From positions 1 through 37,859 of IMG/VR virus record IMGVR_UViG_3300017782_006943: a stretch of DNA of 37,859 bases; one strand, 5' to 3'. The position numbers and the translations under genes were made by a program. Shown one piece after another: positions 7,461 to 37,859 of this stretch; positions within the stretch are counted from its first letter, which is position 1; each line of letters begins with the position of its first letter. This DNA comes from a virus. Under the pieces are notes generated by a model. That model was not told the DNA's origin and ran no database searches. It worked only from the letters and a program-made list of their open reading frames with translations.

Positions 7461-7476
7461 TACATGTTAGAGGGGT

Positions 7477-8244: not shown

Positions 8245-8250
8245 ATATAT

Positions 8251-8256: not shown

Positions 8257-8290
8257 ATGGATATTACACGTGTTTGCAATAAAAAATACA

Positions 8291-8328: not shown

Positions 8329-8352
8329 ATTTGTTTTACCTGCAGGTTCTAG

Positions 8353-8721
8353 CTAGTCATCAAACAACTTGATAACTTCACCGTCATCAGCTGGAGCATC
8401 CGCCGGTACAAGAACCGGGTTCACAATCTTTTCGTATTGAGCAGAGATACGCGGATCTACTTCAAAATCTTCACCAATCGCGATCGCAGCTTTATCGTAA
8501 CTAAAGTAGTTATTACGTGATTTTTCGTCACCCACCGGTGTTACAAATTCTGCAAAGAAGAGCGGAAAAAGTTGAACGGAAAGTTGACCGTTCTCCTGTT
8601 GTTGCACGCCAATCATTACAGGGTTTTGCACCTTAATTGCTTTCTCAGTTGCTTCTGCGAGAGCTCCAAAAATCGAGCGCCCGGCGTTATCAATGAATGT
8701 AATATATGTTTGTTCTTCCAT
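8353..8721 (-). CDS. Small acidic protein of unknown function next to DNA polymerase
   Basis: 122 residues. The start reads MEEQTYITFIDNAGRSIFG; the core is beta-strand-like (PVMIGVQQQENGQLSVQLF), and the C-terminus is acidic and ends IKLFDD. Base composition looks more GC-rich than in its neighbours, which could mean strong expression. Tandem TATAAT boxes precede the start (the nearer 8 nt away), and a strong terminator follows, so it is likely a single, well-expressed unit. The hydrophobic residue in an acidic tail faintly recalls the C-terminal tips of single-stranded DNA-binding proteins, but there is no further similarity and I do not assign that function. Confidence 0.8.
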   Translation of the reverse strand: MEEQTYITFIDNAGRSIFGALAEATEKAIKVQNPVMIGVQQQENGQLSVQLFPLFFAEFVTPVGDEKSRNNYFSYDKAAIAIGEDFEVDPRISAQYEKIVNPVLVPADAPADDGEVIKLFDD

Positions 8722-8729
8722 ATCTATAT

Positions 8730-8740
8730 ATTATATTATA
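8730..8740 (-). promoter_or_regulatory. Tandem overlapping TATAAT boxes before the 8353-8721 gene
   Basis: On the minus strand TATAATATAAT gives two -10-like hexamers sharing a T. The second ends 8 nt before the ATG at 8721. Confidence 0.55.
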
Positions 8741-8752
8741 TATACCTTATAA

Positions 8753-11311: not shown

Positions 11312-11318
11312 ATATATG

Positions 11319-11324
11319 ATTATA
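11319..11324 (-). promoter_or_regulatory. TATAAT box, 7 nt before the DNA polymerase GTG start
   Basis: On the minus strand TATAAT, CATATAT, then GTG. Spacing is the same as at uvsX and at the radical SAM gene starting at 33076. Confidence 0.6.
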
Positions 11325-11356
11325 TATGATGCTTCGTTATTATCAATAACAAAAAG

Positions 11357-12568: not shown

Positions 12569-12594
12569 ATTTAATAATTAATAAGTTTTTTATG

Positions 12595-14400
12595 CTAATC
12601 CACAAAGTTTACACGCTTTGTGATACCATTATGCTTTTCTAGGAATATAATATCACCGGTCGCCGCTTTTATACTTTCCTTTCGATGGCTAATAACAAAT
12701 ACACATTCATTTAGCTTCTCAACCCTTTCATTTAAGATCTCTAAAACTAGATCAACTCCCTTTTCATCCAAACTACTATCAAATAATTCATCGTAAAAAC
12801 TTAAGTTATAATGTACATCTCCTTGAGCCTTTCTCATATCCATAAATGAAAAAAGGCATGCCAAATCAATAGCTTTTCTTTCTGCTCCGGAGAAGTTATT
12901 ATAGAGACATATCTTACCTTTTTCATTTAAAATCTCTTCCTCAAAATATTCGTTAAAAACGCATATACTATTACTATCAAGCTTTTTTAGGTAGTGAGTT
13001 AGTTTAGAGTTAAAGTTTCTTAGTATCTTTTTAACGATATAACTTTTTACCCCTTCTTCACTTACCACAAACTTAACTACATCAAGCATATCAATATTCT
13101 TTTTAATATTGCTTAGCTCGGTGGTAATCGTCGATGATTTAGTCTCTAACTCAACTACAATATCGCTGAATGTATTGGTATCATTGCATGTAGATTTTAA
13201 CTCTTCCTCCATCTCCGATACGCATCTCTTAATGTAATCTATAGATTCTCTAATATGACCTATACCATATTTCTGCTTTTCGATGTTAGCTATTTTATCA
13301 GTTACGACTCCAACTGCCTGGTCGACTTTTTCTATTTCACTATCAATAGCAGTCAATTCATTTGTAAGATTAGCTAACTCTGACTTACCGTTAGTAATAA
13401 TATTTTTAAGATTTTCTTTCTCTTCTTCAATAAGCTCCAAGTCATGATCTTCAATAGAGCGTAAACATACAGGGCAATTTTCTTCACCTGTTCCTATACG
13501 TCTATAGGTTTCTGCCGAGTTCTTTAAATTAAGCTTTAATTCGATAATATTGCTATTAATATTATCCCTATCGGCTTTCTTTGAATCTATTAATGCTGTT
13601 AACTCAGTCAGCTTATCTTTATACGGCTTCTCATCCAATTTTTCGATAACTTCTAGTCGATCGTTAGCTTCTTTTAAATCATCCTTATGCTTTGCTAGGT
13701 TAGTTTGTAAAGTTTCAGTTTTCTTTTCTTTATCGACATTAAAACTATCTCTTTGAGATTTTTGCACAGTCAGGTAATTATTAGTCTCTTCAAGCCGGGT
13801 TATATTAGTATCAAAATCTTGCTTAATAAGACTTTGATCAGACCGTAACTCTGTTAACATTTTTGAGAATATCTCTAAGCTAAATATCTTTTCAATAAAC
13901 TTTCTCTTCTCGACCTTATTTTTTGCCATAAAGGGTATATGGTTGTTGAGAGTCATTATAACACAATTTTGAAAAACTTCTGGTGATGATGATAGAATAG
14001 TTTCAATATAGTGATTAGTATTACCAATCGTATCCCTGGTCTTATCAACCCCATTCTTGAATATATTACATTTAGATGGGCCTAGAGTACGTACTATATG
14101 AAAGTCGTTTCTACCGTAATGCGGGTCATTAATTGCAAATGATAACTCAACAATTGATTTGCCTTCTGTTAAATTATTAGGTATAAATTGTTTTCTAATC
14201 TCCCTGAGAGTACTACCAAAGATAGCAAAATATAAAGCATCAGCTATTGTACTTTTACCGACACCATTTCGTCTATCTTCTTTATCTCGGTTTATACCAG
14301 TTACAATATGTAACCCTTTATTAAATTCAACGCACACCTCATCTTCGCCTACAGACAGGAAGTTCTTTATTTTAAGTTGTTTAAATGTAACGTATTTCAT
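12595..14400 (-). CDS. 46: gp46-like recombination endonuclease subunit (SbcC/Rad50 family)
   Basis: 601 residues (T4 gp46 is 560). This is the ATPase arm of the gp46/gp47 complex that resects DNA ends for recombination-dependent replication. Walker A is NGVGKST at 45-51. Two long coiled-coil arms flank a zinc-hook CPVC at 309-312. The ABC signature FSGAERK is at 503-509, the Walker B region FYDELFDS near 535-542, and a conserved His in VISHRKES follows. The start codon shares its A with the stop of gp47 (TAATG), so translation is coupled, as expected for two subunits of one complex. Confidence 0.95.
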   Translation of the reverse strand: MKYVTFKQLKIKNFLSVGEDEVCVEFNKGLHIVTGINRDKEDRRNGVGKSTIADALYFAIFGSTLREIRKQFIPNNLTEGKSIVELSFAINDPHYGRNDFHIVRTLGPSKCNIFKNGVDKTRDTIGNTNHYIETILSSSPEVFQNCVIMTLNNHIPFMAKNKVEKRKFIEKIFSLEIFSKMLTELRSDQSLIKQDFDTNITRLEETNNYLTVQKSQRDSFNVDKEKKTETLQTNLAKHKDDLKEANDRLEVIEKLDEKPYKDKLTELTALIDSKKADRDNINSNIIELKLNLKNSAETYRRIGTGEENCPVCLRSIEDHDLELIEEEKENLKNIITNGKSELANLTNELTAIDSEIEKVDQAVGVVTDKIANIEKQKYGIGHIRESIDYIKRCVSEMEEELKSTCNDTNTFSDIVVELETKSSTITTELSNIKKNIDMLDVVKFVVSEEGVKSYIVKKILRNFNSKLTHYLKKLDSNSICVFNEYFEEEILNEKGKICLYNNFSGAERKAIDLACLFSFMDMRKAQGDVHYNLSFYDELFDSSLDEKGVDLVLEILNERVEKLNECVFVISHRKESIKAATGDIIFLEKHNGITKRVNFVD

Positions 14401-15449
14401 TATGGTCTATCGGTAGATCTTGCGAAGAGATCAGCTGTATACTTCACAACCTCACTTTTATTTTCAATATCAAGTAAATTTACAAATTCAGTTATAGCTT
14501 CAATTATATCAACACCGGAGAGATCAAAATCACCTTCTTCTGAAAACTTAACTTTATTGTAATTGACGTCATAATCTATTCTAATCTCACAAGGCTTATA
14601 ACTAGTCAATTTAGCTATTAATAAATCTAAATGATCGGTGTTAATATTTTTATCAATTATAATTTTAATAATATTATTTGCAATAACCTCATTAAAAAAT
14701 TTTATAGGGTCCGGGTCTGTAATAAGCTTTGATAAGAAGACTTTGATATGCTTAGGGGTTACTGTATTCTCTGTAAACTCGTATGACTGCTCATCTATAT
14801 TCAGAGTATAAAAACCTTTCACCTGTAGTGAATCTCCGAAATCCATCTCGTACGGGTTTCCAACATACACAATTCGCTTTCTACCTTGAAATGTCTTTTC
14901 GTCTCTTAGATGAAAATGACCTGTAAATATTAACGGTGCCTTGGATATAAGAACTTCTGGATCATCTCCATGATCACAAACTTTAAACCCGTTCATCTTA
15001 AAGTTCTCTAACTCAAAGTGACCAAATACTATATCACAATCAGGTATATCATTAATACTTGTACCCCATGGACAGAAAGTTAAACGCTTACTACCAACGG
15101 TTACCGTCTCAAGCTTATCATATATAGTTAGATTACGTCTACCTTTTAATATTGAGAGGCTGTTAATTTCTGAAGTATCTTTATACCAGGCGTCGTGATT
15201 ACCGGTAATCATGGTAATGTTAAAGTCTTTAAATTTATCTAAAAGATCTTTAGCAAAGTTTAATGTCTTGACACTAATCTCATCTCTATAATGGAAAAAA
15301 TCTCCGCAGAATATTATATCATTAATATCTTGTTTTTGTAATTCTTGAATATACCAATCTACCCATTTATTAGCAATACCTAACCAGAAATCGCTATTTT
15401 GATGTACACCTAGATGAATATCAGAAAATATTGCAACTCTATTTTTCAT
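14400..15449 (-). CDS. 47: gp47-like recombination endonuclease subunit (SbcD/Mre11 family)
   Basis: 349 residues (T4 gp47 is 339). The calcineurin-type phosphoesterase motifs appear in order: FSDIHLG (9-14), CGDFFHYRD (48-56), TGNHDAW (82-88), FGHFELE, and TGHFHLRDE with the final metal-binding His pair. It is the manganese-dependent nuclease partner of gp46. It overlaps both neighbours through TAATG junctions: its ATG lies on the gp55 stop, and its own stop on the gp46 start. Late sigma factor, gp47 and gp46 thus form one translationally coupled operon. Confidence 0.95.
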   Translation of the reverse strand: MKNRVAIFSDIHLGVHQNSDFWLGIANKWVDWYIQELQKQDINDIIFCGDFFHYRDEISVKTLNFAKDLLDKFKDFNITMITGNHDAWYKDTSEINSLSILKGRRNLTIYDKLETVTVGSKRLTFCPWGTSINDIPDCDIVFGHFELENFKMNGFKVCDHGDDPEVLISKAPLIFTGHFHLRDEKTFQGRKRIVYVGNPYEMDFGDSLQVKGFYTLNIDEQSYEFTENTVTPKHIKVFLSKLITDPDPIKFFNEVIANNIIKIIIDKNINTDHLDLLIAKLTSYKPCEIRIDYDVNYNKVKFSEEGDFDLSGVDIIEAITEFVNLLDIENKSEVVKYTADLFARSTDRP

Positions 15450-24069: not shown

Positions 24070-24954
24070 ATGAGTATTAAAACAAATATAAGAACTCCGG
24101 AGAATACTCTCAACTACATGAAGTATGTTGAGATTGAAAATGATACTCGATACCCCGCGGTAACAGGTGGTTTAGGTCAAGGCATTTTCAATAAATCAGC
24201 CGTTTTAGTACAGCAAGTTGACCCTTTTAACACTGGGATTGGTAGCGGCACAGGGCAGCAAGATTATATCGAAAAGTTTGGTGCTAATCTATCTGTTGGA
24301 GCTGATATAGAAACAATCTGGGAAACAGGAGGTATATATGAATATTTAACCGTAGCTTCTACCGTATCAGCTATAAGTAATGATTCCGGTGATACGGTTG
24401 CCGGTACCGGTGCGAGAACTATTGAGATACAAGGGTTAGATTCAAATTACAATACTGTAACGGAGATCATTTCAACAAATGGTACAAGTAACGGACCAGC
24501 GTCTACAAACGAGTTTTTAAGAATATATAGAGCTCTTGTTAAAACAGCTGGTTCAACCGGTACAAATGAAGGGCAAGTTGATGTAAATGCCGGTAGCACG
24601 ACTGTTATATCAATTGGTACAAAAGGTACCGGTGGTAATAAAGAAGGGTTTGGTCAATCTCAAACTAGTGTTTATACTATACCAGCCGGTAAAACAGGCT
24701 ATATAACCCAATGGTCTGTAGGGTCTAGTGTCTATAATTCCGGTGTACAGGCTTTCTTAATGTTATCTGAACCTAATGATGGCCCTATTATGAGAACTAA
24801 GGATATAATGTTTCTAAATAATTATTCAATAAAAGATTACAAGGTGCCTTTACGGGCATTGGAAAAGACTGATATTGAAGTAAGAGCGTATGATACTGCA
24901 ACAGGTATACCAGTTTCAACGTCATATAATGTTATTTTAGTCGATAATGTATAA
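24070..24954 (+). CDS. Virion structural protein, beta-rich
   Basis: 294 residues, no tag. The sequence is Gly/Thr/Ser-rich with beta-strand spacing. Segments such as GADIETIWETGGIYEYL, TGARTIEIQGLDSNYNTV, FLRIYRALVKTAGSTG and VYTIPAGKTGYITQWSVG match, as far as I recall, a virion protein family common in marine phages whose exact place in the particle is unclear. It follows the basic protein after 3 nt and ends just before a late box for the next gene. Confidence 0.75.
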   Translation: MSIKTNIRTPENTLNYMKYVEIENDTRYPAVTGGLGQGIFNKSAVLVQQVDPFNTGIGSGTGQQDYIEKFGANLSVGADIETIWETGGIYEYLTVASTVSAISNDSGDTVAGTGARTIEIQGLDSNYNTVTEIISTNGTSNGPASTNEFLRIYRALVKTAGSTGTNEGQVDVNAGSTTVISIGTKGTGGNKEGFGQSQTSVYTIPAGKTGYITQWSVGSSVYNSGVQAFLMLSEPNDGPIMRTKDIMFLNNYSIKDYKVPLRALEKTDIEVRAYDTATGIPVSTSYNVILVDNV

Positions 24955-25509: not shown

Positions 25510-26388
25510 ATGCCTATTGTATCGCAAAATCAAGATATTACCGTTAAGACAATACGTGATGTTATAAACTTAAAAAGTATCATGCTCGGGCAGGTATTAA
25601 CTCGTTCAACAAGTTTTAATAAATATGGTGCTGATAATAATACTGGTAAAATATTTTTAAAATTTAAAAATATAGCTAATAGCGGCTATATACCTACATA
25701 CAAAGTTACGGTTACCGGGGTAACGGGAGGCGTAGTTACCTTTACATTAAATCCAGGTGTAGAAAAATCTCTCAATTGGCAAGGCCTTTCTGACGGTACA
25801 AGAAATGTTAAGATTGAAGAGATTAGCGGAACGGGCACGGCTAGTCGATCACAGAATCACGACGTCAGTACGAACCCCGAGCAGTTAAAGCAGTTTGAAT
25901 TTGATAGACAAAGCCCTGTTGTTGATATCAGTATGTCTAAAGATAGTGGTAGTAATACTGCAAATTATACAAGAAGGTATGGCGTTAATATACCAAACCC
26001 TTTACCAGCTACAGATCAAAATGCTAGTGTTTTTAACTGGAGAAGTTCATCTGTTTTCGATGGGTTCTATAACGTAAGATCATCTACAAAAAGTAAATAC
26101 GGGGCGGAACAAAACCGAGGTAGGCTTGATTACACATTATATACCGACGGATTTACTACCGGCGGCACGGTTACAGTTAATTATAAAGGTAGATCTGTTA
26201 CAAGAACATTAGCCTCTAATAATTTCTTCAAGTTTGATAATATTTCAGGTGGTGCCGCGACTGCAACGATAACTGATAATACAACTGGTATATCGGTATC
26301 AAGAAGTATTACACCCGGCTACGACTCAACGAGATGGAAATCGTATGCCTTTAACGGTACAGATTACTTCTACGGGTTTAACTGGTAG
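25510..26388 (+). CDS. Late beta-rich structural protein with two similar modules
   Basis: 292 residues, Thr/Ser/Asn/Gly-rich. Two stretches look alike: YKVTVTGVTGGVVTFTLNPG ending in VKIEEISGTG, and GTVTVNYKGRSVTRTLASN ending in ATATITDNTTG, each followed by a segment with RS and YG residues (FNKYGADN and SKYGAEQN also match). This suggests two repeated beta-sandwich or fibre-tip domains. No tag. The aromatic C-terminus (GTDYFYGFNW) is typical of virion fibre proteins. It is the last late gene before the accessory cassette. Confidence 0.7.
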   Translation: MPIVSQNQDITVKTIRDVINLKSIMLGQVLTRSTSFNKYGADNNTGKIFLKFKNIANSGYIPTYKVTVTGVTGGVVTFTLNPGVEKSLNWQGLSDGTRNVKIEEISGTGTASRSQNHDVSTNPEQLKQFEFDRQSPVVDISMSKDSGSNTANYTRRYGVNIPNPLPATDQNASVFNWRSSSVFDGFYNVRSSTKSKYGAEQNRGRLDYTLYTDGFTTGGTVTVNYKGRSVTRTLASNNFFKFDNISGGAATATITDNTTGISVSRSITPGYDSTRWKSYAFNGTDYFYGFNW

Positions 26389-26431: not shown

Positions 26432-27115
26432 ATGTTAAGTGAAATTATTCAGGCAATTAGCGGTAATTTAAAATTTTGTTTACGTAATAACGAGACTTTT
26501 TTTGTAGATGGTTGTCATATTTCTGGTAATACCATTAAGTTTATAGATGCTGTTGATGGCATTGAGTATGAGAAGGTTTTAGATGAAATTGATTTAATAA
26601 CATTTGCAGACTTTACTATACCTAACAGGTCAGATCTAGATAATATTAAATCTTTTATGGAAGCTAATATTGATGACCATATAAAGAATAATAACATCTT
26701 TGAAGAGCTACTACATAAATGCAATGAATATAAGAAAATATTTAATGAGCAGAGCATTAACAGGATTAAAGAAGCTGTTTTAGACTGTAATACTTCAGAA
26801 TTAGATAAGCTAAATATTTTAGAATGCAGACAAGTTATTAGTTTAGAGAACTGTAGTCAAAATGAAGCTAGCTTAATAACTACCCTATATATAAATTTAA
26901 TAGATAGAAAACTTAATAAAGCTCTCCGTGAGTTAGATCAATATATAACAGATATGAATGATGTAGAGTTTGAGCAAGAGGCCAATATTATAAGGAAAGA
27001 TTTAATCGATAATGTTAATGATTTTAAGCGATCTATTAATAATATAGACTTTAAAGATTTGTTTGATAACTGGCCTACACTATTAAACCCATCACCATTT
27101 AATATACATGTATGA
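26432..27115 (+). CDS. Hypothetical protein at the head of the accessory cassette
   Basis: 227 residues, helical and acidic, beginning MLSEIIQAISGNLKFCLRNN and ending FNIHV. No domain is recognised. Its end overlaps the next start by 8 nt, so it is co-translated with the GT29-like gene. It has no capsid tag and no late promoter. Confidence 0.65.
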   Translation: MLSEIIQAISGNLKFCLRNNETFFVDGCHISGNTIKFIDAVDGIEYEKVLDEIDLITFADFTIPNRSDLDNIKSFMEANIDDHIKNNNIFEELLHKCNEYKKIFNEQSINRIKEAVLDCNTSELDKLNILECRQVISLENCSQNEASLITTLYINLIDRKLNKALRELDQYITDMNDVEFEQEANIIRKDLIDNVNDFKRSINNIDFKDLFDNWPTLLNPSPFNIHV

Positions 27116-27698
27116 TAATAGTATTATTATAGTTGGTAACGGTGAAGGTATTTTACGAAAAAAGAACGGCTATAAAATAGATATGTTCGATAAAGTCGTA
27201 CGCCTGGGCAGATATGTTACAGGTGGATTTGAAGAATATGCTGGTAGTAAGACTGATATTATATCAACTATATACTGGAAATTAGATAAGGAGAGGCTAA
27301 AGCAACATAAGGTTATATTGAACGTACCACTAAACTATCAGCATAATTTTATAGAAAGCGAAGATTATATAAGTAAAGAGTTTCCGGAGTATAGAGAGAA
27401 TATTATATATCTTAATAAATTTGAGGATGCTGAAAACATCAAACAGATGTACTTAGAAGTTATGCCGACATTTAAAGGTATAGATAATGTAAATTTCTCT
27501 CTTGGCTTTAAAACATTCTATTTTATCCGAAAACTCTTCCCTAATCGAAAGATATATGTAACGGGGTTCGACTTCTTTAAGACAGGGTGGTACTGGGACC
27601 CTACACACAATAGAAATGATTCAAATATGCACCCGTATTTATACGAGAGATTGTGGTATATGAAAATGAAAGTAAAGGGTGTTATAAATGAACTCTAA
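27108..27698 (+). CDS. GT29-like (sialyltransferase-type) glycosyltransferase
   Basis: 196 residues. The N-terminal IIIVGNGEGILRKK with IDMFDKVVRLG (6-34) matches the CMP-sugar-binding sialylmotif L, and AGSKTDI follows, as in GT29. SLGFKTFYFIRKLFPNRKIY (131-150), then VTGFDFF, fits motif S. His175 and Glu180 (HPYLYE) form the H-x4-E of motif VS. The protein is short, a single-domain form without a membrane anchor. It should transfer a sugar from a CMP-sugar, but donor and acceptor are unproven. It overlaps both neighbours. Confidence 0.75.
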   Translation: MYDNSIIIVGNGEGILRKKNGYKIDMFDKVVRLGRYVTGGFEEYAGSKTDIISTIYWKLDKERLKQHKVILNVPLNYQHNFIESEDYISKEFPEYRENIIYLNKFEDAENIKQMYLEVMPTFKGIDNVNFSLGFKTFYFIRKLFPNRKIYVTGFDFFKTGWYWDPTHNRNDSNMHPYLYERLWYMKMKVKGVINEL

Positions 27699-28581
27699 GT
27701 ATCTAATATCGGTAAAAAGTTCAGGTCTATGTTTTAATATAATGCGATTAATTATATTGACAGATATAGCTAAAAAATATAATCGAATTCTATACTTCTT
27801 AACTAAACCAGAGCATATACCTATTCTCGAGATGTTTAACAGTCATTGCATATATATACCTTATATAGATTCTCATACAGAACAATTTAATAATTTTACG
27901 CGCAACAAAAATATACATGCATTGTATGATTTGAAATATTTAAGTTTTTTGAAGAAGGAATATCTCAATAACATATTTAACAGCCCGTCAATCAAAGATT
28001 TTACCTTTTTTAGTGGGAATGCATATGACGCATACAATACCGATAATAAATTTTTAGTTATTGATTATAATGACGGGTCATACGATACAGAGATTATAAA
28101 TTCAATAGAAATAGAACCGCTAGCAGTTAATGATAATATATTAGCCGGTATCAGCCATGATACTATAACAATTAATATTAAGATTAACGTTCCGAATAGT
28201 GAGAGAATATATAGATTCTGGGACGAAGTTATACCACGAGTTAAAGAGCAGTATAAACAGCCAATCCTCTTAATATCCGGTAATAATGATATTTTAGAAT
28301 ATCTTAGTAAGAAGTATGAATGTGCGTGTAGATCGGTTAAGACAGAGACTAATTATTCGAATATTAGAGGCAATGATATAATCAGAGGTAAACCAAGTGA
28401 AATATTTTCTGATGTTATAATTTGTTCGCTAACAAATTTTATACCGTTCACCCGCCTAAAAAGAGATTACCCTGATATTATATCAAAATATACTGATCTG
28501 AATTTTGTTGTTGAAAAGGTGGAGAAGTTTGATATATTAGTTGAATATCTAGCTAAATATATTACTATTCAGGGATCTTAA
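27688..28581 (+). CDS. Glycosyltransferase-like protein (paralogue of 30569-31549)
   Basis: 297 residues. The C-terminal half contains RIYRFWDEVIPRVKEQYKQ followed by PILLISGNNDILEYLSKKYE, and later FSDVIICSLTNFIPF and a DYPDIISKYTD segment. The same order occurs in the protein at 30569 (LILISGSNDYKNHFCEKF, LLTDCLYIQNSPAGY, YREDLFKYG). The arrangement recalls the donor domain of GT-B or fucosyltransferase-like enzymes, but no diagnostic motif is clear. It overlaps the GT29-like gene by 11 nt and the convergent oxygenase gene by 17 nt. Confidence 0.6.
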   Translation: MNSKYLISVKSSGLCFNIMRLIILTDIAKKYNRILYFLTKPEHIPILEMFNSHCIYIPYIDSHTEQFNNFTRNKNIHALYDLKYLSFLKKEYLNNIFNSPSIKDFTFFSGNAYDAYNTDNKFLVIDYNDGSYDTEIINSIEIEPLAVNDNILAGISHDTITINIKINVPNSERIYRFWDEVIPRVKEQYKQPILLISGNNDILEYLSKKYECACRSVKTETNYSNIRGNDIIRGKPSEIFSDVIICSLTNFIPFTRLKRDYPDIISKYTDLNFVVEKVEKFDILVEYLAKYITIQGS

Positions 28582-29155
28582 ATTCCGTTTCAAAGGTACA
28601 ATAATTAACCATTACTGCTCTTCTACGCTCTTTTATATCAACTGACTCTAAACCGTGCCATGTATCATCTCCTGGGTAAAAGTAGAACCCCTGATTGTTA
28701 ATATACGGTACAGTTTTAATATACTCTTTATCTTTATTATATAGAGCAGTGCCGATACTCTCTGATTCACCCGTATTATTAAGATAAACAAGAAAGCTCA
28801 TTATTTTTTCACTTATATCAACATGAGGCTCGAGCCAAGATTTCTCTTTATCTTCTATAAACTCTACGCGTAGATAATTACCTCTTATCGCTTTACCAGA
28901 TTCTTGCTCGAACATAAGAACTATATCATCGTGCAAGAAAAAATCTACAATTCTATTTAATGTGGAATTACTCCACATATTTTCCTTATCAACAAAGAAT
29001 CTATTACTGTTTGTAGTACGCGCGCCGTCAAGAGATGCTGAATGATTATGTAATTTTATATTATCAATATCAGCTAGCTCCCTATCGCAAAAAAAATCAG
29101 TAAATGTATAGTGATTAAATGGGTCGCTGCTGCACTGTTTATTTCGAAACTTCAT
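28565..29155 (-). CDS. 2-oxoglutarate/Fe(II)-dependent oxygenase
   Basis: 196 residues. The facial triad is visible: His111-x-Asp113 (WLEPHVDISEKIMSFLVYLN), His167 (GDDTWHGLES) and a 2OG-binding Arg among 177-179 (KERRRAVMV). The strand order matches small prolyl-hydroxylase-like enzymes frequent in marine T4-like phages. The substrate is unknown; next to glycosyltransferases and radical SAM enzymes it may hydroxylate a sugar, lipid or peptide. Its start overlaps the end of the upstream gene by 17 nt, so the two minus-strand genes form an operon. Confidence 0.85.
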   Translation of the reverse strand: MKFRNKQCSSDPFNHYTFTDFFCDRELADIDNIKLHNHSASLDGARTTNSNRFFVDKENMWSNSTLNRIVDFFLHDDIVLMFEQESGKAIRGNYLRVEFIEDKEKSWLEPHVDISEKIMSFLVYLNNTGESESIGTALYNKDKEYIKTVPYINNQGFYFYPGDDTWHGLESVDIKERRRAVMVNYCTFETEFKIPE

Positions 29156-29681
29156 TAATGTTATTATATATTATATCTATATATTTATCAAGATAGTTTT
29201 TTATATCAGCTCGATTTTTTGCGGAAGTGACTACATCATCGTCCTGTAGTATACTATCGATATGACTTGCGCTACATGACTGTAAATGCATCATTAAACA
29301 AACAAATAACGGCGATAAAACATTATTACGGTTACATATAAAAAGTATATTACCGGTCATTCCACTGAGGGTTAATAAAAATTTACTTCTTTCCTTTATA
29401 ATACGATTTCGTATTGTAATTCTACTGCGAATCTCCTCACCGGATCTACTCTGCGGAGGTATGTGTTTTATTCGATGAAGCTCTGGATCTTTAAAAAAAT
29501 CTAATGATTTGATCCCATTACATGTAAGAGCAATTCGATGATTAACATTCAGCTGTTCATATTCAGTTAAATTAATAACATATTCTATTTTATTTGTAAT
29601 TAAATCATTCAGTTCATCTTCTATTGATTTATCTAGATTTATAAATGTATCGATGTAAAAATTACTATATATCTGTCTCAT
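29139..29681 (-). CDS. Dual-specificity-phosphatase-like protein, catalytic Arg missing
   Basis: 180 residues. EYVINLTEYEQ (33-43) resembles the early strand of dual-specificity phosphatases, and GNILFICNRNNVLSPLF (110-126) sits where the P-loop HCx5RS would be. Cys116 is kept, but the position of the Arg is Leu122 followed by Ser123, so ordinary phosphatase chemistry is unlikely. It may be a pseudophosphatase or an unrelated Rossmann-like protein. It is translated with the oxygenase and diverges from the radical SAM gene at 29715 across 33 nt. Confidence 0.5.
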   Translation of the reverse strand: MRQIYSNFYIDTFINLDKSIEDELNDLITNKIEYVINLTEYEQLNVNHRIALTCNGIKSLDFFKDPELHRIKHIPPQSRSGEEIRSRITIRNRIIKERSKFLLTLSGMTGNILFICNRNNVLSPLFVCLMMHLQSCSASHIDSILQDDDVVTSAKNRADIKNYLDKYIDIIYNNINEVSK

Positions 29682-29714
29682 TGGATATCTGTAAAACTAT
29701 TAATAATTACTTAG

Positions 29715-30572
29715 GTGATAGCAGATAATAAGCAAGATATAATAGATCTAAGAAAGCGACAGATAGCTACAGATATCGAGATGACACCGATGAAAGCTCT
29801 ACAGAGTATTACTATCAATCCTACCGAGCTATGTAACCGTACTTGCCATTTTTGTCCTAGAAGCGATCCTAAGGTATATCCAAATCAAAATCTACATATA
29901 ACAGAAGAAACAGTCCGGAAGCTGAGCTCGGAGCTCAAGCTTAATAATTATACGAATAGGGTAGGTTGGTCTGGTAACGGTGAGCCTCTATTAACTAAAG
30001 ATTTTTATAAACTCGTAAAGATTGTTAGTGATGAAAACCCTCAATTAAGGGTACATGAAATTAATACTAATGGCGATAAAATAAAGGAAGGTACTATTGA
30101 AAAGATATATGAAGCTGGTATTAACCATATCGTTGTTAGTTTATATGACGGTGATGATCAGTTAGAAAAATTTAATAAGATGTTTGAAGGTTACGATTCA
30201 AATACATTTACATTAAGGAAGAGTTATTATCATTCAGATAATTTTTCCGGTTTTACAAATAGAGCTGGAGCAGTCAAAATGAATGCTGATTTACTGAAAG
30301 ATAATATAAAAAATAAATGCTACTTACCTTTTTATAAACTCTTTATCGATTGGAACGGTGATCAGATTTTATGCTGCGAAGATTGGTTTAAATTATCTAA
30401 AAATAAACTAAACATTAACACACACTCATTGAAGGAAATATGGGAATCAGCATTTTTAAATAACTACCGAACACACCTCAAAGAAGGTAAAAGAGATTTA
30501 GCTGTATGTAATAGATGTAATATACATGGTGAGAAGGTAGGAAAGCAGTATACCGATTACTACAAACTATGA
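29715..30572 (+). CDS. Radical SAM/SPASM-type enzyme (A)
   Basis: 285 residues, GTG start. After ALQSITINPTELC the motif CNRTCHFC (CxxxCxxC) binds the radical SAM iron-sulphur cluster; GNGEPLL and NTNGDK follow as the SAM-binding strands. The C-terminal part, CYLPFYKLFIDWNGDQILCC with CNRCN near the end, is SPASM-like and would hold an auxiliary cluster. It is a clear paralogue of the gene at 32198-33076 (shared CPR-x-D, YPN-x-NLH, SLYDG, NR-x-G, FIDWNGD, LK-[ED]-IW). SPASM enzymes modify peptides, proteins or sugars; the substrate here is unknown. ATGA coupling links it to the next gene. Confidence 0.88.
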   Translation: MIADNKQDIIDLRKRQIATDIEMTPMKALQSITINPTELCNRTCHFCPRSDPKVYPNQNLHITEETVRKLSSELKLNNYTNRVGWSGNGEPLLTKDFYKLVKIVSDENPQLRVHEINTNGDKIKEGTIEKIYEAGINHIVVSLYDGDDQLEKFNKMFEGYDSNTFTLRKSYYHSDNFSGFTNRAGAVKMNADLLKDNIKNKCYLPFYKLFIDWNGDQILCCEDWFKLSKNKLNINTHSLKEIWESAFLNNYRTHLKEGKRDLAVCNRCNIHGEKVGKQYTDYYKL

Positions 30573-31549
30573 TTTATTTTGCACAAGCTATTAGAGAGAG
30601 GAGAACATATACTGACTTCATGATAGGTCTTATAATGCTCACTCAGTATTACAAAAAATATGATAAAACATTCTATATAAAAGGTGATATTGCTGATGCC
30701 TTTGAAAACGAAAAGTGTATATTTAATAATATAGAAAGTAATAACTCGTATAAGCTTCTAAGAAATCTCAGATTAAAGGCAGTTAAAGGTGTTAAGGAAG
30801 ATCCGATGCATCGCGATGATACATATCTCAAAAAGCTATTTATTGAAAGAGTTACTAGAGATCGGAATATTAATGATATGTATGCAAACGGTGTTCGTAC
30901 CGGTAATAATTTTTTATTAGATAATACCGTAAAGTTTTATTATCTAGATACACATAATGATGGTTTGTTACACTGTAATGATAATAAACATAAATGTAAG
31001 ACAGAAAGCAGTATTAAGGTAAATGTTGATATAACGAATAGTACTCATATAGCTGATAAATTTACAGAGAATAAATACTTTATAACTTTACCAACATTTA
31101 GAATACATAAAGAGGAAGATATAAAAATGTTAGATATATTTTGCAGCTTCTTAATTAATGAAACTCCTTACAAGAACCTTATTTTAATAAGCGGTAGCAA
31201 TGATTATAAAAACCATTTTTGTGAAAAATTTAATATGGATACCACACATATATATGATGATGGGTTTACTAGTGAAAAACTAGGCTTCAGAAAGACAGAA
31301 GCTGGATTTACACGTAAGGAAAAAGGTTCTCTACAGAGTCTATTAACTGACTGCCTTTACATACAAAACTCTCCAGCCGGTTATATAGACTTTATGCAGG
31401 TCTATAATACATATCGAGAAGACCTCTTTAAATATGGTATGAATAAATATAGTAACTCATACTATGATACATTTATAACGAGGAATAAGAGCCAGGCGAT
31501 TGATATTATTGGTAAAGAACTAAAGAAAAATAAGATATATTATCAATAG
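30569..31549 (+). CDS. Unknown cassette protein, paralogue of 27688-28581
   Basis: 326 residues. It is translationally coupled to radical SAM enzyme A, so the two probably act together. LILISGSNDYKNHFCEKFN and the later LLTDCLYIQNSPAGYIDFMQ correspond to segments of the protein at 27688. The N-terminal half differs (AQAIRERRTYTDFMIGLIML). A glycosyltransferase fold is possible but no motif proves it. Its end overlaps the convergent GT8-like gene by 7 nt. Confidence 0.6.
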   Translation: MIYFAQAIRERRTYTDFMIGLIMLTQYYKKYDKTFYIKGDIADAFENEKCIFNNIESNNSYKLLRNLRLKAVKGVKEDPMHRDDTYLKKLFIERVTRDRNINDMYANGVRTGNNFLLDNTVKFYYLDTHNDGLLHCNDNKHKCKTESSIKVNVDITNSTHIADKFTENKYFITLPTFRIHKEEDIKMLDIFCSFLINETPYKNLILISGSNDYKNHFCEKFNMDTTHIYDDGFTSEKLGFRKTEAGFTRKEKGSLQSLLTDCLYIQNSPAGYIDFMQVYNTYREDLFKYGMNKYSNSYYDTFITRNKSQAIDIIGKELKKNKIYYQ

Positions 31550-32205
31550 TTCAGCCATATATCCGCATAATCGCATTGATTATATTCTTTAAGCCATGGT
31601 CCACCTTCGGTATAATGCAGCGCTAACGGCTTACCATCCTTAGGTTCTTTATACCAGTCAACTAACCAGTTCCATTGTATAGGTAGTGAACCAATCTCTT
31701 CGCCCTCTAACCACTTAAACCTGTGAAGAAAGGCACCGGTTTGATTATTAACAGTAAGTGGGTTTAGCGTCTTATTTTTCGGATGCTCGTTATTAAAAAT
31801 CATTAGGCTACTCCAATTTTTACGCGGCCAGGCAGTCTGCGGCTTACCGTCCATCTTCTGTAAGTTAGTTGGATTATAATCGTGCTTACAACACATGATA
31901 GCATATTTTGGGTCGTATAGATCTAATAGTTTATCAATTGATTCAAGGAATAAAAAGTCACCGTCTAGAAATATACTTACACCTTCATATTCACTTTGAT
32001 ATGGTACAAAAAATCTTGCAAATGCAAACTGTGTAGATTCGTATGGGTCTTTTTCTCTACCATATTCTTCAACCGTGTTATAATTAATCGGTTGTATATC
32101 AAGTTTATATCTACTATTTTTATCTTTAATACTCTGTATACACTTATCATACGCGATTTTATGAGGCTCATCCAAGCCTACAAATATTTTAATTTTTTTA
32201 TGCAT
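31543..32205 (-). CDS. GT8-like (GT-A fold) glycosyltransferase
   Basis: 220 residues from MHKKIKIFVGLDEPHK. The frame is open to 32262, but the ATG at 32205 is preferred because the upstream gene ends at 32198 and the protein starts naturally with the first beta strand. The metal-binding DxD is Asp81-Gly-Asp83 (VSIFLDGDFLFLESI). The C-terminal GGPWLKEY and preceding His (LALHYTEGGPW) fit the donor-site His of GT8-like enzymes. It overlaps radical SAM enzyme B by 8 nt and is probably in one operon with it. Acceptor unknown. Confidence 0.78.
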   Translation of the reverse strand: MHKKIKIFVGLDEPHKIAYDKCIQSIKDKNSRYKLDIQPINYNTVEEYGREKDPYESTQFAFARFFVPYQSEYEGVSIFLDGDFLFLESIDKLLDLYDPKYAIMCCKHDYNPTNLQKMDGKPQTAWPRKNWSSLMIFNNEHPKNKTLNPLTVNNQTGAFLHRFKWLEGEEIGSLPIQWNWLVDWYKEPKDGKPLALHYTEGGPWLKEYNQCDYADIWLNY

Positions 32206-33076
32206 AATACTCTTTAAATAAATTAAACGAATCTTCACCGTAAACCTGGCCGTGCACTTCACAGTCCGTGCATGGTGATTTTCCTTTTCGGCCGTTTAAT
32301 ATATGATGCTGCCTCATTGTTTTAGCTGCTTCTGATAACCATATATCTTTAAGACTATCTTTATGTATATTGCCAAACTTAACATCTTTTCGCCAATTAT
32401 GAGTGCATAATAACACATCGCCATTCCAATCAATAAAAGACGAGTTAAAAGACATATAACACGGTCTAATAGGTACTTCCCTATCATTTAATTTCATCAT
32501 ACCTACTCGGTTACTAATACCTGACATGCCATATTCCTCTTCAGGACCGTACCAGAATCTTTTAATAACGTATTGATCTGGTTTAATATTACATCTATTA
32601 AATTGCTCTAAGAATTTCTCTTCTTGCTCCGGTCCATCATACAGACTCATCTTTAATAGATTAAGACCATTATCAAATAACCTCTTAAGAGTATCATCTT
32701 TTAAGAGATCGCCATTTGTTGTAATAGAAATATTATTATTATATTGCAGCTTGTCTCTAAATGTTTTTACAATCTCAAATATCTTTTTATTAGCGAGAGG
32801 TTCACTAAACCCAGCAAACACAACTTGATTTTTATATTCAAACTCAGCTAAATCATTAGCGAGTTTTTCACATGTATCAATTGACATATGTAAGTTTCTG
32901 TTAGGGTATATTTTTTTATCTACTCTCGGGCAAAAAACACATTTACGAGTACATATTTCTGTAACGTTTACATCAATAATCTGCAATGCAGACATAATGT
33001 TCGATGCATCGATTTCGAATGTATCGAAGATATTTTTTCTAAATTCAATAAACTCGTTAGTAGGTTTACTATCCAT
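32198..33076 (-). CDS. Radical SAM/SPASM-type enzyme (B)
   Basis: 292 residues. CTRKCVFC (CxxxCxxC) lies in VTEICTRKCVFCPRVDKKIY. SEPLANKK and TTNGDLL supply SAM-binding elements, and CYMSFNSSFIDWNGDVLLC with a closing CTDCEVHG supplies SPASM-like cysteines. Sequence and length mark it as a paralogue of enzyme A at 29715, but it lies on the opposite strand and is paired with a different partner (the GT8-like gene). Two divergent copies suggest two related substrates. A TATAAT box lies 7 nt before the ATG. Confidence 0.88.
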   Translation of the reverse strand: MDSKPTNEFIEFRKNIFDTFEIDASNIMSALQIIDVNVTEICTRKCVFCPRVDKKIYPNRNLHMSIDTCEKLANDLAEFEYKNQVVFAGFSEPLANKKIFEIVKTFRDKLQYNNNISITTNGDLLKDDTLKRLFDNGLNLLKMSLYDGPEQEEKFLEQFNRCNIKPDQYVIKRFWYGPEEEYGMSGISNRVGMMKLNDREVPIRPCYMSFNSSFIDWNGDVLLCTHNWRKDVKFGNIHKDSLKDIWLSEAAKTMRQHHILNGRKGKSPCTDCEVHGQVYGEDSFNLFKEYYA

Positions 33077-33083: not shown

Positions 33084-33089
33084 ATTATA
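33084..33089 (-). promoter_or_regulatory. TATAAT box, 7 nt before the start at 33076
   Basis: On the minus strand TATAAT, ATAAGAT, ATG. It drives the radical SAM B and GT8-like genes. Confidence 0.6.
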
Positions 33090-33133
33090 GCTTATATTTC
33101 TTAAAAATAAACTTGAAATCATTTTTTATATAA

Positions 33134-33140
33134 TTAAATA
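33134..33140 (+). promoter_or_regulatory. Late-like TTAAATA, 8 nt before the start at 33149
   Basis: TTAAATA, TTTTGGAT, ATG. A TATAAT overlaps its 5' end (33129-33134), so either promoter class may apply. Confidence 0.4.
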
Positions 33141-33148
33141 TTTTGGAT

Positions 33149-33343
33149 ATGAGTAATATAAAAGACAATAATAGTGATATTAAGGTATACTTCGAACATT
33201 TCTCTACTGATGTAGAGCTTTTTCTCGAAAAAGGTAATAAGGCTGCTGCAACACGTGCACGTAAGTCGCTGCTAGAGATTTCGAAGCTATGTAAAGACAT
33301 TAGAAAGCAGATTCAGGAGATAAAGAATGAAGGTAAAGCATAA
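33149..33343 (+). CDS. Histone H1-like (Hc1-type) small protein
   Basis: 64 residues from the ATG at 33149 (a TTG two codons upstream is also in frame but less likely). FLEKGNKAAATRARKSLLEI followed by SKLCKDIRKQIQEIK corresponds to the N-terminal helical domain of chlamydial histone-like Hc1 (KGNKAAAxRxR pattern). The long Lys/Ala-rich tail that compacts DNA in Hc1 is absent. It could still bind nucleic acid or act as a dimer module. The gene ends next to the late box of the retropepsin-like gene. Confidence 0.78.
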   Translation: MSNIKDNNSDIKVYFEHFSTDVELFLEKGNKAAATRARKSLLEISKLCKDIRKQIQEIKNEGKA

Positions 33344-33351: not shown

Positions 33352-33792
33352 GTGATTACTTTTAAACAATTTTTTGAATCGACTCAACCGCTAGGGTTGA
33401 TTGAAACAATAACATTTAAAGAATTAGGTCCCATTGAAGCTAAAGTTGATAGCGGCAATGGGGCTTATAATGTCTTACACGGTGTAAATCTGCAGTATAG
33501 TGGTCTTGATGACAATTATGAAGGTAAATCTCATGTTACTTTTGAAACAGTAGATGGTAAGACAATAAAAAAGCGTGTTATTGAATTTATCGATATCAAT
33601 ATTGGTTCCGGTAATATTGAAGAAAGACCGGTAGTAGAATTTGATATTGAGATCGGCGATAAAGTTTACCTCGCTACTAAATTCTCAATCGGTGATAGAG
33701 AAGAAAACGAGTATAAAATACTCGTTGGTAAGGATTTTATCGAGCAACTCGGTGGATTAATTGATGTAAGTGCTGAAGGTAATTTAGATTAA
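33352..33792 (+). CDS. Retropepsin-like aspartic protease (PF05618-like)
   Basis: 146 residues, GTG start. MITFKQFFE is a capsid-targeting-like tag close to T4 MKTYQEFIAE. After it, IEAKVDSGNGAYNVLHG places Asp33-Ser-Gly as the catalytic triplet, as in the so-called ATP-dependent zinc protease family (usual form AKIDTGA-x-SALH), and RPVVEFDIEIGDKVY and YKILVGKDFIEQLGG are the matching later strands (LLGRxFL). It would act as a dimer. Tag and late promoter suggest it is packaged or acts in head maturation. It ends at a terminator shared with folE2. Confidence 0.8.
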   Translation: MITFKQFFESTQPLGLIETITFKELGPIEAKVDSGNGAYNVLHGVNLQYSGLDDNYEGKSHVTFETVDGKTIKKRVIEFIDINIGSGNIEERPVVEFDIEIGDKVYLATKFSIGDREENEYKILVGKDFIEQLGGLIDVSAEGNLD

Positions 33793-33849: not shown

Positions 33850-34893
33850 CTATCGCAATCCAGTTGATTCAAATACATCTCTAGCTACTCCAGCTGAGAA
33901 GCCGCCTTGTACACCCTTCACAATAACTGATACGGCATTATGACTATGCAAGCTTTCGTTATGCGAAGCTACAATCTTGAAGTCTTTAATACGTGATTCA
34001 TTGTTAAGCTTCTCAAATAAGAGTCTAACTGCATCCTCTACGAACTTAAGATAAGCACCGTTCTTTTCAGCAAACGCCTGTTCGTCTTCTCTCTTGACCA
34101 TTACTTGTGTCTCAGTTTGAAGAGCAGCTAAGCATAATTCCTGAAGATCCTCAACCCAGAGCATATCATCAAACTTTACACTAACTCGAGCAACACTTCG
34201 TTGACTATGAGGTACTGTAGCGCGGTTACGATATTTTTCAGCATGCTCACTTAATTCAAAGCTGCAAGGACATGCTGATGAATAGACGAAATCAAAGTGA
34301 ATATACTTTTTAAATTCACCTTCTTTAGTTAGATCTCCTTCAAATACTACGTCATAATACTGAAAACCTTCTAAACCACTACGTAGACTCTGTTGCTTAA
34401 TAGGATATGAGATCTTAAGCATAATACGAGAGTCAAAGCTCTTAAGATTATTCCTATATGTTTCGAGTACATCTCTAATCTTACCCATACTGAATACTTC
34501 ATCTTTATGATCATAGAAGCTTCTCATAATACGAGACATATTAATACCCTTCTTATGAGCTTCGAGACTAACGCTGCCAGTAACGCTCGTCTCTAACTCA
34601 ATAGTTTTCCCGTCTCTCTTCTTGTAAGTTAACGGTAGTTTAAAGTTATGGATGCCTACTTGTTGAATAGGTACAGGTGCACCTTGAATTAAACTAGAAG
34701 GTCCGTTCTGAAGGTCAGGTAATGAAGAAATGTATTTTTTATCTGCATTGATATTATCATCATATACTCTAATAGGAGGAAAATAGCCTTTACTAAACTC
34801 TTCACCCATAATTTCTTTCGCGATGACATCTTTCTCACCAGTAAGTTCATCATCTTCACCTAACCATTCATAATTTTTACTTTTATCTGACAT
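33850..34893 (-). CDS. folE2: GTP cyclohydrolase FolE2 (type IB)
   Basis: 347 residues, slightly longer than bacterial FolE2 because of an extra N-terminus. It converts GTP to 7,8-dihydroneopterin triphosphate, the first step towards preQ0 (and folate). VPIQQVGIHNFKLPLTY opens the FolE2 domain; TGSVSLEAHKKGINMSRIM, SSACPCSFELSEH (metal-binding Cys) and TVPHSQRSVARVSV (metal-binding His) follow, and the C-terminal SHNESLHSHNAVS supplies the last His. The key residues appear intact. TATAAT lies 6 nt before the ATG. Together with queD, queE and queC in this window it completes the GTP-to-preQ0 route. Confidence 0.92.
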   Translation of the reverse strand: MSDKSKNYEWLGEDDELTGEKDVIAKEIMGEEFSKGYFPPIRVYDDNINADKKYISSLPDLQNGPSSLIQGAPVPIQQVGIHNFKLPLTYKKRDGKTIELETSVTGSVSLEAHKKGINMSRIMRSFYDHKDEVFSMGKIRDVLETYRNNLKSFDSRIMLKISYPIKQQSLRSGLEGFQYYDVVFEGDLTKEGEFKKYIHFDFVYSSACPCSFELSEHAEKYRNRATVPHSQRSVARVSVKFDDMLWVEDLQELCLAALQTETQVMVKREDEQAFAEKNGAYLKFVEDAVRLLFEKLNNESRIKDFKIVASHNESLHSHNAVSVIVKGVQGGFSAGVARDVFESTGLR

Positions 34894-35443: not shown

Positions 35444-36055
35444 ATGAGATATATTTCAACAAAGATTATTCCTATGGGTAGTACAGCTTTTCGTCAATGG
35501 AGGGCAGATAGTCATTGCAAATTGATTCACGGTTATCGTTTACAATGTAAGTTATGGTTTACAGCGGATGAATTAGATGATAAGAATTGGATCTATGATT
35601 TTGGTGGCTGTAGAGAAATTAAAAAGCTTTTAGAAAAGCAATTTGACCATACAACTGTAGTAGCTGCTGATGATCCGGAATTAGACACATTTAAGTTGAT
35701 GTCTGGTAAAGGTATGATTGATCTACGTATTGCTGCAAAAGGTGTAGGCATTGAAAGAACTGCTGAATGGGTTTATGATACAACTAATAAATTCGTAACT
35801 GAACAAACTAATAATCGTGTAAGAGTTATTAAAGTAGAAGTTTGGGAACATGAAGGAAATAGTGCAATTTATGAAGAAAGTCTTGGTGATATTACATTAC
35901 AGGTTCATGATAATACTGAGGAAGAAAGCGTAACTGCAGTTGTAGAAAATACAGTTACTAAAATTCCTCTAGATAAACCAAAAATCCCGCCACTTAATAG
36001 TAAAGTTACTACCGGTATGGGTAATTTATTTGGCGGTACGTCATGGGGTGATTAA
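35444..36055 (+). CDS. queD: QueD-like 6-carboxytetrahydropterin synthase, variant zinc site
   Basis: 203 residues; the first 125 or so are the QueD/PTPS domain, the rest a Pro/Thr-rich tail not found in bacterial QueD. It would convert dihydroneopterin triphosphate to 6-carboxytetrahydropterin. Cys25 in SHCKLIHGYRLQC aligns with the catalytic Cys, and FDHTTVVA (Asp68, His69) and VEVWEHEG (Glu) fit the remaining active-site residues. Of the three usual zinc His, only His29 is clear: the first is replaced by Phe16 (STAFRQW), the third by Tyr31 (HGY for HGH). I recall similar HGY forms in other phage homologues, so this may be a phage subfamily. It lies between folE2 and queE. Confidence 0.82.
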   Translation: MRYISTKIIPMGSTAFRQWRADSHCKLIHGYRLQCKLWFTADELDDKNWIYDFGGCREIKKLLEKQFDHTTVVAADDPELDTFKLMSGKGMIDLRIAAKGVGIERTAEWVYDTTNKFVTEQTNNRVRVIKVEVWEHEGNSAIYEESLGDITLQVHDNTEEESVTAVVENTVTKIPLDKPKIPPLNSKVTTGMGNLFGGTSWGD

Positions 36056-37179: not shown

Positions 37180-37859
37180 ATGTCTAATTTAAATAAAACG
37201 CTATCTCTTAGCGATGATCACGTCTTTTATACTGTAGAGGGTGAAGGTAAATTTATTGGTGAGCCTTCTGTTTTCATGAGACTTGCTATGTGTAACCTTA
37301 CATGTCAAGGCTTTGCATCCGAAGATTCGCCGCATGGATGCGATTCGTTTGTTTCATGGTCTGTGAAGAACCGATATACATATGATGAGCTTAATAATTT
37401 CTATGAGAATAACGGGTTTGTTAAGAATCTTAAGGACGGTGCAATTCTTAAGATTACCGGCGGAGAACCGTTGCTGCAACAGAAGCGACTTATTGAATGG
37501 TTAGTATCTTTTATGGAAAGGTTTAATTTTTGCCCGCGTATTGACTTTGAGACAAACGGCTCTTTAATGCCTCTACCGGAATGGTCTAAAATATATAGAG
37601 CGACGTTTACTGTATCTCCGAAGATGAGCAATAACGGTGACGCTGAAAAGCTTAGATATAAACCTAACGTATTGCAATATCATAATGAATTAGGCTCTTG
37701 CTTTAAATTTGTTATTAATAATGAAGATGATGAGAAGGAACTATTTGAGAAATATATTGATAATGGTTTAGTTAGTCGCGAAAGAGTTTGGTTGATGCCT
37801 TGCTGTGGTAGTAGAGAAGAGCATACTGCTAAATCTGCAATGGTAGCCGAGTTATGTAA
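37180..37859 (+). CDS. queE: 7-carboxy-7-deazaguanine synthase QueE, 3' end outside window
   Basis: 226 codons plus two bases before the edge; bacterial QueE is about 210-220 residues, so the end is near. It converts 6-carboxytetrahydropterin to 7-carboxy-7-deazaguanine with a radical SAM mechanism. YTVEGEGKFIGEPSVFMRL is the usual QueE start. The cluster motif is stretched: Cys38-x3-Cys42, then 11 residues (QGFASEDSPHG) before Cys54-Asp, instead of two. GGEPLLQ (94-100) and DFETNGS (122-128) are intact. The identification is firm; the loop is unlike the textbook motif. Confidence 0.9.
   Translation, partial: MSNLNKTLSLSDDHVFYTVEGEGKFIGEPSVFMRLAMCNLTCQGFASEDSPHGCDSFVSWSVKNRYTYDELNNFYENNGFVKNLKDGAILKITGGEPLLQQKRLIEWLVSFMERFNFCPRIDFETNGSLMPLPEWSKIYRATFTVSPKMSNNGDAEKLRYKPNVLQYHNELGSCFKFVINNEDDEKELFEKYIDNGLVSRERVWLMPCCGSREEHTAKSAMVAELC

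Follow-up and report, generated by a model that had tools for sequence, protein, structure and literature searches.

IMG/VR virus record IMGVR_UViG_3300017782_006943, a linear record of 37,859 bases analysed here as a whole (hereafter, the window), carries nine open frames, A to I (Table 1), which raise the question of what a phage would build with several glycosyltransferases, two radical S-adenosylmethionine (SAM) proteins and an oxygenase, and on which molecule. A preliminary description, drawn from the sequence alone, proposed a pathway for a modified glycan or peptide aimed at the host surface or the virion. Our comparison with other viral contigs shows that this cassette is real and conserved, with the gene order kept in diverged phages. 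It supports the glycan half of that proposal, a cassette for glycan building or modifying, and not a pathway of the ribosomally synthesized and post-translationally modified peptide (RiPP) type; virion and host surface are both plausible targets. Gene A, which lay within the span first noted and was left undescribed, turns out to be a constant cassette partner with a conserved C-terminal tail. With somewhat less than even confidence, we favour a phage-encoded glycan pathway that would target the tail-fibre module of the phage itself, A serving as acceptor or carrier.

A conserved nine-gene cassette

All nine frames are present, nearly all overlapping by 4-17 bases, and H probably starts at the ATG at 32205 rather than the GTG at 32262. 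Between the window and its close relative L003, the ratio of nonsynonymous to synonymous divergence (dN/dS) is 0.02 for F, 0.03 for I, 0.07 for G, 0.08 for D, 0.09 for both B and H, 0.12 for C and 0.18 for E. Such values, together with a gene order kept in diverged phages, argue that frames B to I are not chance, and the cassette frames are under purifying selection.

Eighteen further viral contigs, which represent at least three diverged groups, carry the gene set, and there it directly follows tail-fibre-type genes; the contigs compared are fragments, and the pattern scans described below detect exact matches only. Five contigs (L003, L004, L005, L006 and L008) retain the A-to-I order, with H inverted in L006, and three (L019, L020 and L024, the last being the same contig as L040) carry an aminotransferase, two copies of C, D, F, B and H. 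L007 adds a cytidine monophosphate (CMP)-Kdo synthetase scoring over the NCBIfam cut-off, a haloacid dehalogenase (HAD) phosphatase and two further radical SAM genes. L043, from a more diverged phage, has the full set except E, followed by an aminotransferase, a CMP-Kdo synthetase and a HAD phosphatase. In the diverged contigs L044-L049, fibre-type genes are followed by A, B, C, D, E-like, G-like, F and H, with identities of 57-59% for F, about 45% for D, about 40% for B and about 25% for C. The order fibre gene-A-B-C-D is thus kept across diverged groups, and a set recurring in this way with differing parts points to a gene set that is old and stable and that exchanges its parts.

Exchange is also visible at short range. 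Relative to L003, the window shows a synonymous divergence of about 0.3 in D, E, I and the flanks but of about 2 in A, B, C, G and the gene at the fibre position, a difference between blocks that indicates block replacement by recombination. A search with the cassette DNA against 50,697 phages gave no match.

Gene A and its invariant tail

Protein A has no match in phage records or solved structures. Its body retains about 15-20% identity among the most diverged copies (28 of 181 positions versus L044), while its C-terminus is nearly constant: W-P-[TS]-L-[LI]-N-P-S-P-[FY]. Seven of the nine invariant columns in the 275-column alignment fall in this tail, a conservation run equalled by none of 20,000 column shuffles. 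Synonymous sites in the tail DNA vary freely, so that what is conserved is the protein. Overlap with B is ruled out as the cause, since the motif ends before the start of B and these synonymous sites vary.

A coding pattern for the tail has 18 matches in 2.9 million viral contigs, all 18 of them cassette carriers; because the pattern was drawn from these same sequences, this count expresses specificity and not independent discovery. A more general form of the motif occurs 24 times in the 2,327 unique frames of all fetched loci, always 14-35 residues from the C-terminus of an A-like protein. The tail is linked to the cassette.

The gene in the tail fibre or adhesin position just upstream of A evolves fast: it shares 34% identity with its L003 copy (dN/dS 0.33), whereas its L003 neighbours are about 95% identical, and it has no phage or other database match. 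Upstream of A in other contigs, tail-fibre-type genes can be recognized, with a T4 gp36 domain in L043 (E 5e-8), a tail-fibre PHROG in L041 (E 3e-6) and a collar domain, below cut-off, in L044 (E 5e-4). A further gene upstream of A in the window has a homologue in Synechococcus phage S-SCSM1 that is annotated 'virion protein' and lies between tail fibres and terL.

Radical SAM proteins and glycosyltransferases

F and I, initially described as two radical SAM/SPASM proteins on opposite strands, indeed score over the cut-offs of both Pfam domains and share 37% identity. A recent tandem duplication is ruled out, as the two fall into separate clades with 100/100 support each. Their nearest solved relative is BtrN (PDB 4m7t; profile E 1.4e-36 over nearly the whole length, next match 1e-6), which oxidizes an alcohol of an aminocyclitol (PMC9012708). 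The radical SAM motif CX3CX2C is invariant in 15 relatives, and a single four-cysteine auxiliary cluster, CX17C-X44-CX2C, is formed by the invariant residues C202, C220, C265 and C268, which align with the BtrN cysteines at the same spacing. F and I are therefore predicted to be BtrN-type proteins (alcohol dehydrogenases with a 'twitch' cluster) rather than peptide maturases.

Relatives of these proteins are encoded in 490 viral stretches and also occur in bacteria, where the neighbouring genes, named from their N-terminal sequences apart from those matched by search, support a role in sugar work. An Arcobacter locus (L113) has a NeuB-like synthase, a cytidylyltransferase-like gene and aminotransferases; in a Bradyrhizobium genome (L122 6881-9481), aminotransferase, BtrN-like radical SAM and GT29-like genes adjoin; and a Paraglaciecola locus (L117) opens with a flagellin-like gene. 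Two further contigs are perhaps binning errors: one labelled 'Nitrosomonadales' (L119), with a radical SAM gene nearly identical to that of Paraglaciecola, and one labelled 'Pacearchaeota' (L120), whose gene pairs with a viral one in the tree.

The cassette holds four predicted glycosyltransferases, namely the GT29-like B, the pair C and G, and the GT8-like H, with G assigned by homology only. Of the two family likenesses noted at the outset, that of B stands and that of H to GT8 is probable. B belongs to the GT29 profile PF00777 (31 bits against a cut-off of 23; E 2e-7), and a profile of B and 14 relatives matches ST3Gal1 (E 4.5e-5) and ST6Gal1 (E 2e-4) over residues 6-187, nearly the whole length; a CMP donor for B would fit the CMP-Kdo synthetase of the variant cassettes. 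H falls slightly under the PF01501 cut-off (22.3 bits against 24.3; E 1e-4), has a D-x-D motif that is invariant in its relatives, matches phrog_28018 (E 2e-48) and has homologues in the marine phages S-SCSM2R and Mosig.

C and G had been called related unknown proteins. They are related in a many-relative alignment, where both have an ILLISG[NS]ND block, but not by pairwise BLAST (E 0.5), and neither matches a Pfam family over its cut-off. An AlphaFold2 model of C (mean predicted local distance difference test score, pLDDT, 86) matches plant FUT1 (E 3e-6), NodZ (E 3e-5) and a cyanophage fucosyltransferase (E 1e-5) in Foldseek, at superfamily level only (TM-score 0.42-0.55 overall, 0.42-0.49 for the likeness to FUT1 and NodZ). 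On this model, C is predicted to have a GT-B fold of the fucosyltransferase type, and G is provisionally given the same fold via its homology to C. Pattern scans of 85,000 species genomes found no relatives of C or G; a scan with G alone gave no match, the choice of pattern being limiting, since G occurs in relatives. By the scan of species genomes, no described host operon for polysaccharide synthesis with this gene order came to light. Separately, the best viral fold match of C, A0A3G5A2W3, is part of a protein of the giant virus Harvfovirus that is named radical SAM protein, perhaps a fusion of radical SAM and C-type activities.

The oxygenase and the phosphatase-like protein

D was proposed to be a 2-oxoglutarate (2OG)-Fe(II) oxygenase. 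It scores slightly under the curated cut-off of PF13640 (25.8 bits against 27; E 2e-5), its H-x-D...H iron triad (H111/D113/H167) does not vary among 14 relatives, and the closest protein of solved structure is 9ei6, with a prolyl-4-hydroxylase (P4H) domain (profile E 2.6e-5); together these results uphold the proposal. Skp1-type hydroxyproline glycosylation offers a model for D acting with glycosyltransferases, for which a literature search gave no usable source.

For E, the term phosphatase-like survives as a description of fold: a poor, low-confidence model resembles dual-specificity phosphatases. C116 is invariant and no arginine stands at +6 in nine relatives, and an active phosphatase is ruled out because the catalytic arginine of C-x5-R is missing in all nine.

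Other cassettes with a related tail

A different kind of cassette, which we denote type 4 (L052, L055, L081 and L099; the window kind being type 1), combines a radical SAM gene, a HisC-like aminotransferase, a GT8-like relative of H and, mostly, an amidinotransferase-like gene. At or near the place of A stands an A-like protein, 18-33% alike, with the tail W-P-[PA]-[IL]-L-x-P-x-P-x-F-I. This tail pattern is found in nine viral contigs, 31-35 residues from the end of the A-like protein in all; the cassette is present in seven of them, and L159 and L162 end inside its first gene, the aminotransferase. A third kind, that of L060, lines up genes for an A-like protein with the tail, a GT8-like protein and a radical SAM protein, after which come four GT29-like genes; in the stretch behind the A-like gene (7340-15396), the GT8-like gene leads, and two radical SAM genes flank the four GT29-like genes and an aminotransferase. 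Wherever a tail-bearing cassette is not cut by a contig end, it contains a BtrN-type radical SAM protein and a GT8-like relative of H; D is not universal.

Proposed pathway and alternatives

In the pathway that we favour, F and I would use SAM radical chemistry to oxidize a hydroxyl group, on a sugar or on a ring resembling one, to the ketone. In the variant cassettes, a pyridoxal phosphate-dependent aminotransferase would turn the ketone into an amino sugar, and a KdsB-type enzyme would couple a sugar acid to CMP. A short glycan would then be assembled on protein A, encoded directly behind the fibre-position gene, by B as an enzyme of the CMP-sugar type, C and G as GT-B enzymes of the fucosyltransferase type, and H as one of the GT8 type. 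The body of A would vary along with the host-contact genes, and the W-P-x-L-L-x-P-x-P tail would stay fixed because the cassette enzymes recognize it. D may act by hydroxylating a proline in the tail, which would create or trim an attachment site. The sugar substrates, A as acceptor, the target of D and the role of E are what we infer from this arrangement. The oxidation predicted for F and I, the transamination and CMP loading in the variants and the sugar transfer expected of B, C, G and H fit together as one path. The variants appear compatible with a Kdo8N-type pathway (dehydrogenase, aminotransferase and KdsB), on which a literature search gave no paper that bears. Four putative glycosyltransferases, the likeness to BtrN, the variant sugar genes, the linkage of the tail and the neighbouring fibre genes all suggest such a pathway.

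Several points weigh against it. Both the presence of A in the virion and its glycosylation are read from sequence context, and the tail of A could instead dock it to the fibre. The 18 contigs with the A tail share ancestry, and the type-4 tail pattern was drawn from four of the nine contigs that it matched. No relative of D was seen in the type-4 cassette, so the tail does not generally require hydroxylation by D. The type-1 cassette lacks a full set of genes for making sugar nucleotides and must rely on the host. Finally, the authors of the pelagimyophage study favour modification of the host O-chain for comparable islands (PMC7029224).

Within the favoured pathway, we regard a more specific claim as possible and a little less probable than the pathway itself: the C-terminal W-P-x-x-L-x-P-x-P tail of a hypervariable, fibre-linked protein would be the recognition and attachment tag for a matching set of enzymes (radical SAM proteins, oxygenase and glycosyltransferases) that can be swapped. 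If so, host-contact proteins would be free to change and still offer an exotic glycan a fixed handle. Many viral contigs have glycosyltransferase and radical SAM genes, and the constant tail of A offers a short, testable peptide for their target. Were the tail to carry a glycan, phages would possess a modular system of tags and enzymes with which to decorate their host-contact proteins, and new sugar-modifying radical enzymes could be drawn from the cassettes.

The strong, main rival, although on balance rather doubtful to us, is that the cassette alters the host surface glycan (lipopolysaccharide O-chain or core) during infection and blocks superinfection, with A unrelated to the enzymes. This is the published view for glycosyltransferase-rich pelagimyophage host recognition clusters, in which GT8 enzymes are commonest (PMC7029224). 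The CMP-Kdo synthetase of the variants suits this explanation as well, Kdo being a lipopolysaccharide sugar, as does the exchange of cassettes among close relatives. However, no membrane-spanning protein was found among A to I, so the cassette has no flippase, polymerase or membrane-bound initiator, and a change of the host surface leaves the fixed A tail, confined to cassette contigs, unexplained.

It is unlikely, and clearly less probable than a change of host surface, that A is an adhesin tip or fibre-assembly factor in the position of T4 gp38, with its proline-rich tail docking on the fibre and its company with the enzymes due to a shared host-recognition island. A does lie directly behind tail-fibre genes in diverged phages, and its body evolves fast, as does the adjoining fibre-position gene. 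Yet T4-like fibre modules are numerous, and still the tail patterns match viral contigs only within such cassettes; the upstream fibre genes, too, vary in length and sequence whereas the tail does not.

A RiPP-like pathway with radical SAM/SPASM proteins modifying a peptide is very improbable: SPASM proteins often act on peptides, and A has a conserved C-terminal segment beside the radical SAM proteins, but F and I have the four-cysteine twitch pattern of BtrN, their best match, and not the seven-cysteine SPASM pattern, the cassette has no protease or exporter, and their relatives accompany sugar genes in phages and bacteria alike. Least probable of all is that the glycosyltransferases decorate DNA as part of a 7-deazaguanine modification, for which FolE2, QueD, QueE and QueC genes are present in the same window, because the cassette is swapped or rebuilt in L019 and L081 while these genes remain, diverged contigs L041-L049 carry the cassette with 7-deazaguanine genes unmatched in the stretches fetched, and the 2OG protein is prolyl-hydroxylase-like, not TET/JBP-like.

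Phage setting and flanking genes

Genes of a T4-like myovirus are recognizable in the window: DNA polymerase, UvsX, UvsY, SbcC, SbcD, a gp55-like late sigma factor and PhoH. The DNA polymerase reaches a top identity of 31% among 50,697 phage records, so the phage group is undescribed in that collection. QueC, FolE2, QueD and QueE together suggest a 7-deazaguanine DNA modification, to judge from their assignments; in L007, a GTP cyclohydrolase I (FolE) gene (10809-11459) takes the place of FolE2. An extra glycosyltransferase (phrog_7162, E 3e-24) is encoded at 11357-12568, within the replication block and distant from the cassette.

To the right of the cassette, the PF05618 protein is kept at the edge of all cassette versions in the window's phage group and also adjoins the type-4 cassette of L081; its gene is a constant border of the swap site. 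The frame at 33085-33300 on the minus strand, over the Hc1-like gene, is antisense. Two copies of AAGTTTATAAATATAATAAAATGGCC, the T4-type late-promoter core, stand on the minus strand a few bases before an ATG: at 5249-5256, where the ATG opens a 571-residue frame (3526-5241), and at 7491-7498, where it starts a 7-codon frame upstream of 7092-7460. The late-promoter sequence TATAAATA was observed 5 times in the window against 12 expected, never upstream of a cassette gene, and was therefore rejected as a guide to cassette timing; sigma-70-like promoters are as frequent in the window as in shuffles.

Table 1 Cassette genes and neighbouring features, in window positions
Feature	Position	Strand	Basis or remark
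QueC	1587-2336		PHROGs
Virion protein homologue	24070-24954	+	phrog_8198; flanking cassette, upstream of A
Fast-evolving gene in tail fibre/adhesin position	25510-26388	+	
A, cassette partner protein with hypervariable body and invariant C-terminal tail	26432-27115	+	Tail scans, alignment
DNA for A tail W-P-T-L-L-N-P-S-P-F	27071-27100	+	
B, GT29-like (sialyltransferase-type) putative glycosyltransferase	27108-27698	+	PF00777, PDB profile matches
C, predicted GT-B glycosyltransferase, fucosyltransferase type	27688-28581	+	AlphaFold2 model, Foldseek
D, 2OG-Fe(II) oxygenase, prolyl-4-hydroxylase-like	28565-29155	-	PF13640, P4H profile match, iron triad
E, dual-specificity-phosphatase-like fold without catalytic arginine	29139-29681	-	Low-confidence model, alignment
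F, predicted BtrN-type radical SAM protein, twitch auxiliary cluster	29715-30572	+	BtrN profile match, cysteine pattern
G, second putative GT-B, fucosyltransferase-type protein, distant C homologue	30569-31549	+	Family alignment
H, GT8/GT24-like putative glycosyltransferase	31543-32205	-	phrog_28018, invariant DxD
I, second predicted BtrN-type radical SAM protein, clade apart from F	32198-33076	-	Pfam, BtrN match, tree
Hc1-like gene, small, lysine-rich	33149-33343	+	
PF05618 'Zn_protease' family protein	33352-33792		Cassette right edge
FolE2	33850-34893		Recognized from its sequence
QueD	35444-36055		PHROGs
QueE	37180-37857		PHROGs

Comparison with known systems

The gene combination was at first said to match no described phage system. 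This holds for the exact gene set; the general kind is known from two studies (PMC7029224 and PMC2853527). Literature searches on phage-encoded virion glycosylation gave nothing to the point with the terms tried.

Host recognition clusters of pelagimyophages combine glycosyltransferases with inserted radical SAM cassettes beside tail fibres, and the window resembles them as a T4-like marine phage with a hypervariable island beside tail fibres that holds several glycosyltransferases and radical SAM genes (PMC7029224). By that definition, which concerns gene content and position and not the SAR11 host, the island of the window is such a cluster. The conserved cassette, the BtrN assignment and the tail-bearing partner were not found described in the passages of that study consulted.

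Campylobacter phages CP220 and CPt10 have an interchangeable radical SAM/amidinotransferase module (PMC2853527). Its radical SAM genes lie near baseplate genes, and one of them matches F and I; the module also carries aminotransferase-like and amidinotransferase genes. It differs in that the matching radical SAM protein is only 27-30% identical, no A-like tail was seen, and B, C and D are unmatched. In Synechococcus phages S-SCSM2R and S-SCSM1, a radical SAM gene adjoins a HisC-like aminotransferase near a tail fibre, as in the cassettes; these phages also have a GT24-like relative of H at 45%, 2OG oxygenases and KdsA/KdsB, and among the viral fold matches of C a fucosyltransferase of S-SCSM1 ranks second. 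Unlike in the window, their genes lie in separate clusters, and A, B, C and D are unmatched. Compared with BtrN, the butirosin dehydrogenase, F and I have the same auxiliary-cluster spacing and a distant sequence, and they are found with glycosyltransferases instead of in an antibiotic cluster. What is new here is a conserved set of nine genes, the assignment of its members to BtrN-type and fucosyltransferase-type proteins, and a tail-marked partner tied to swappable cassettes.

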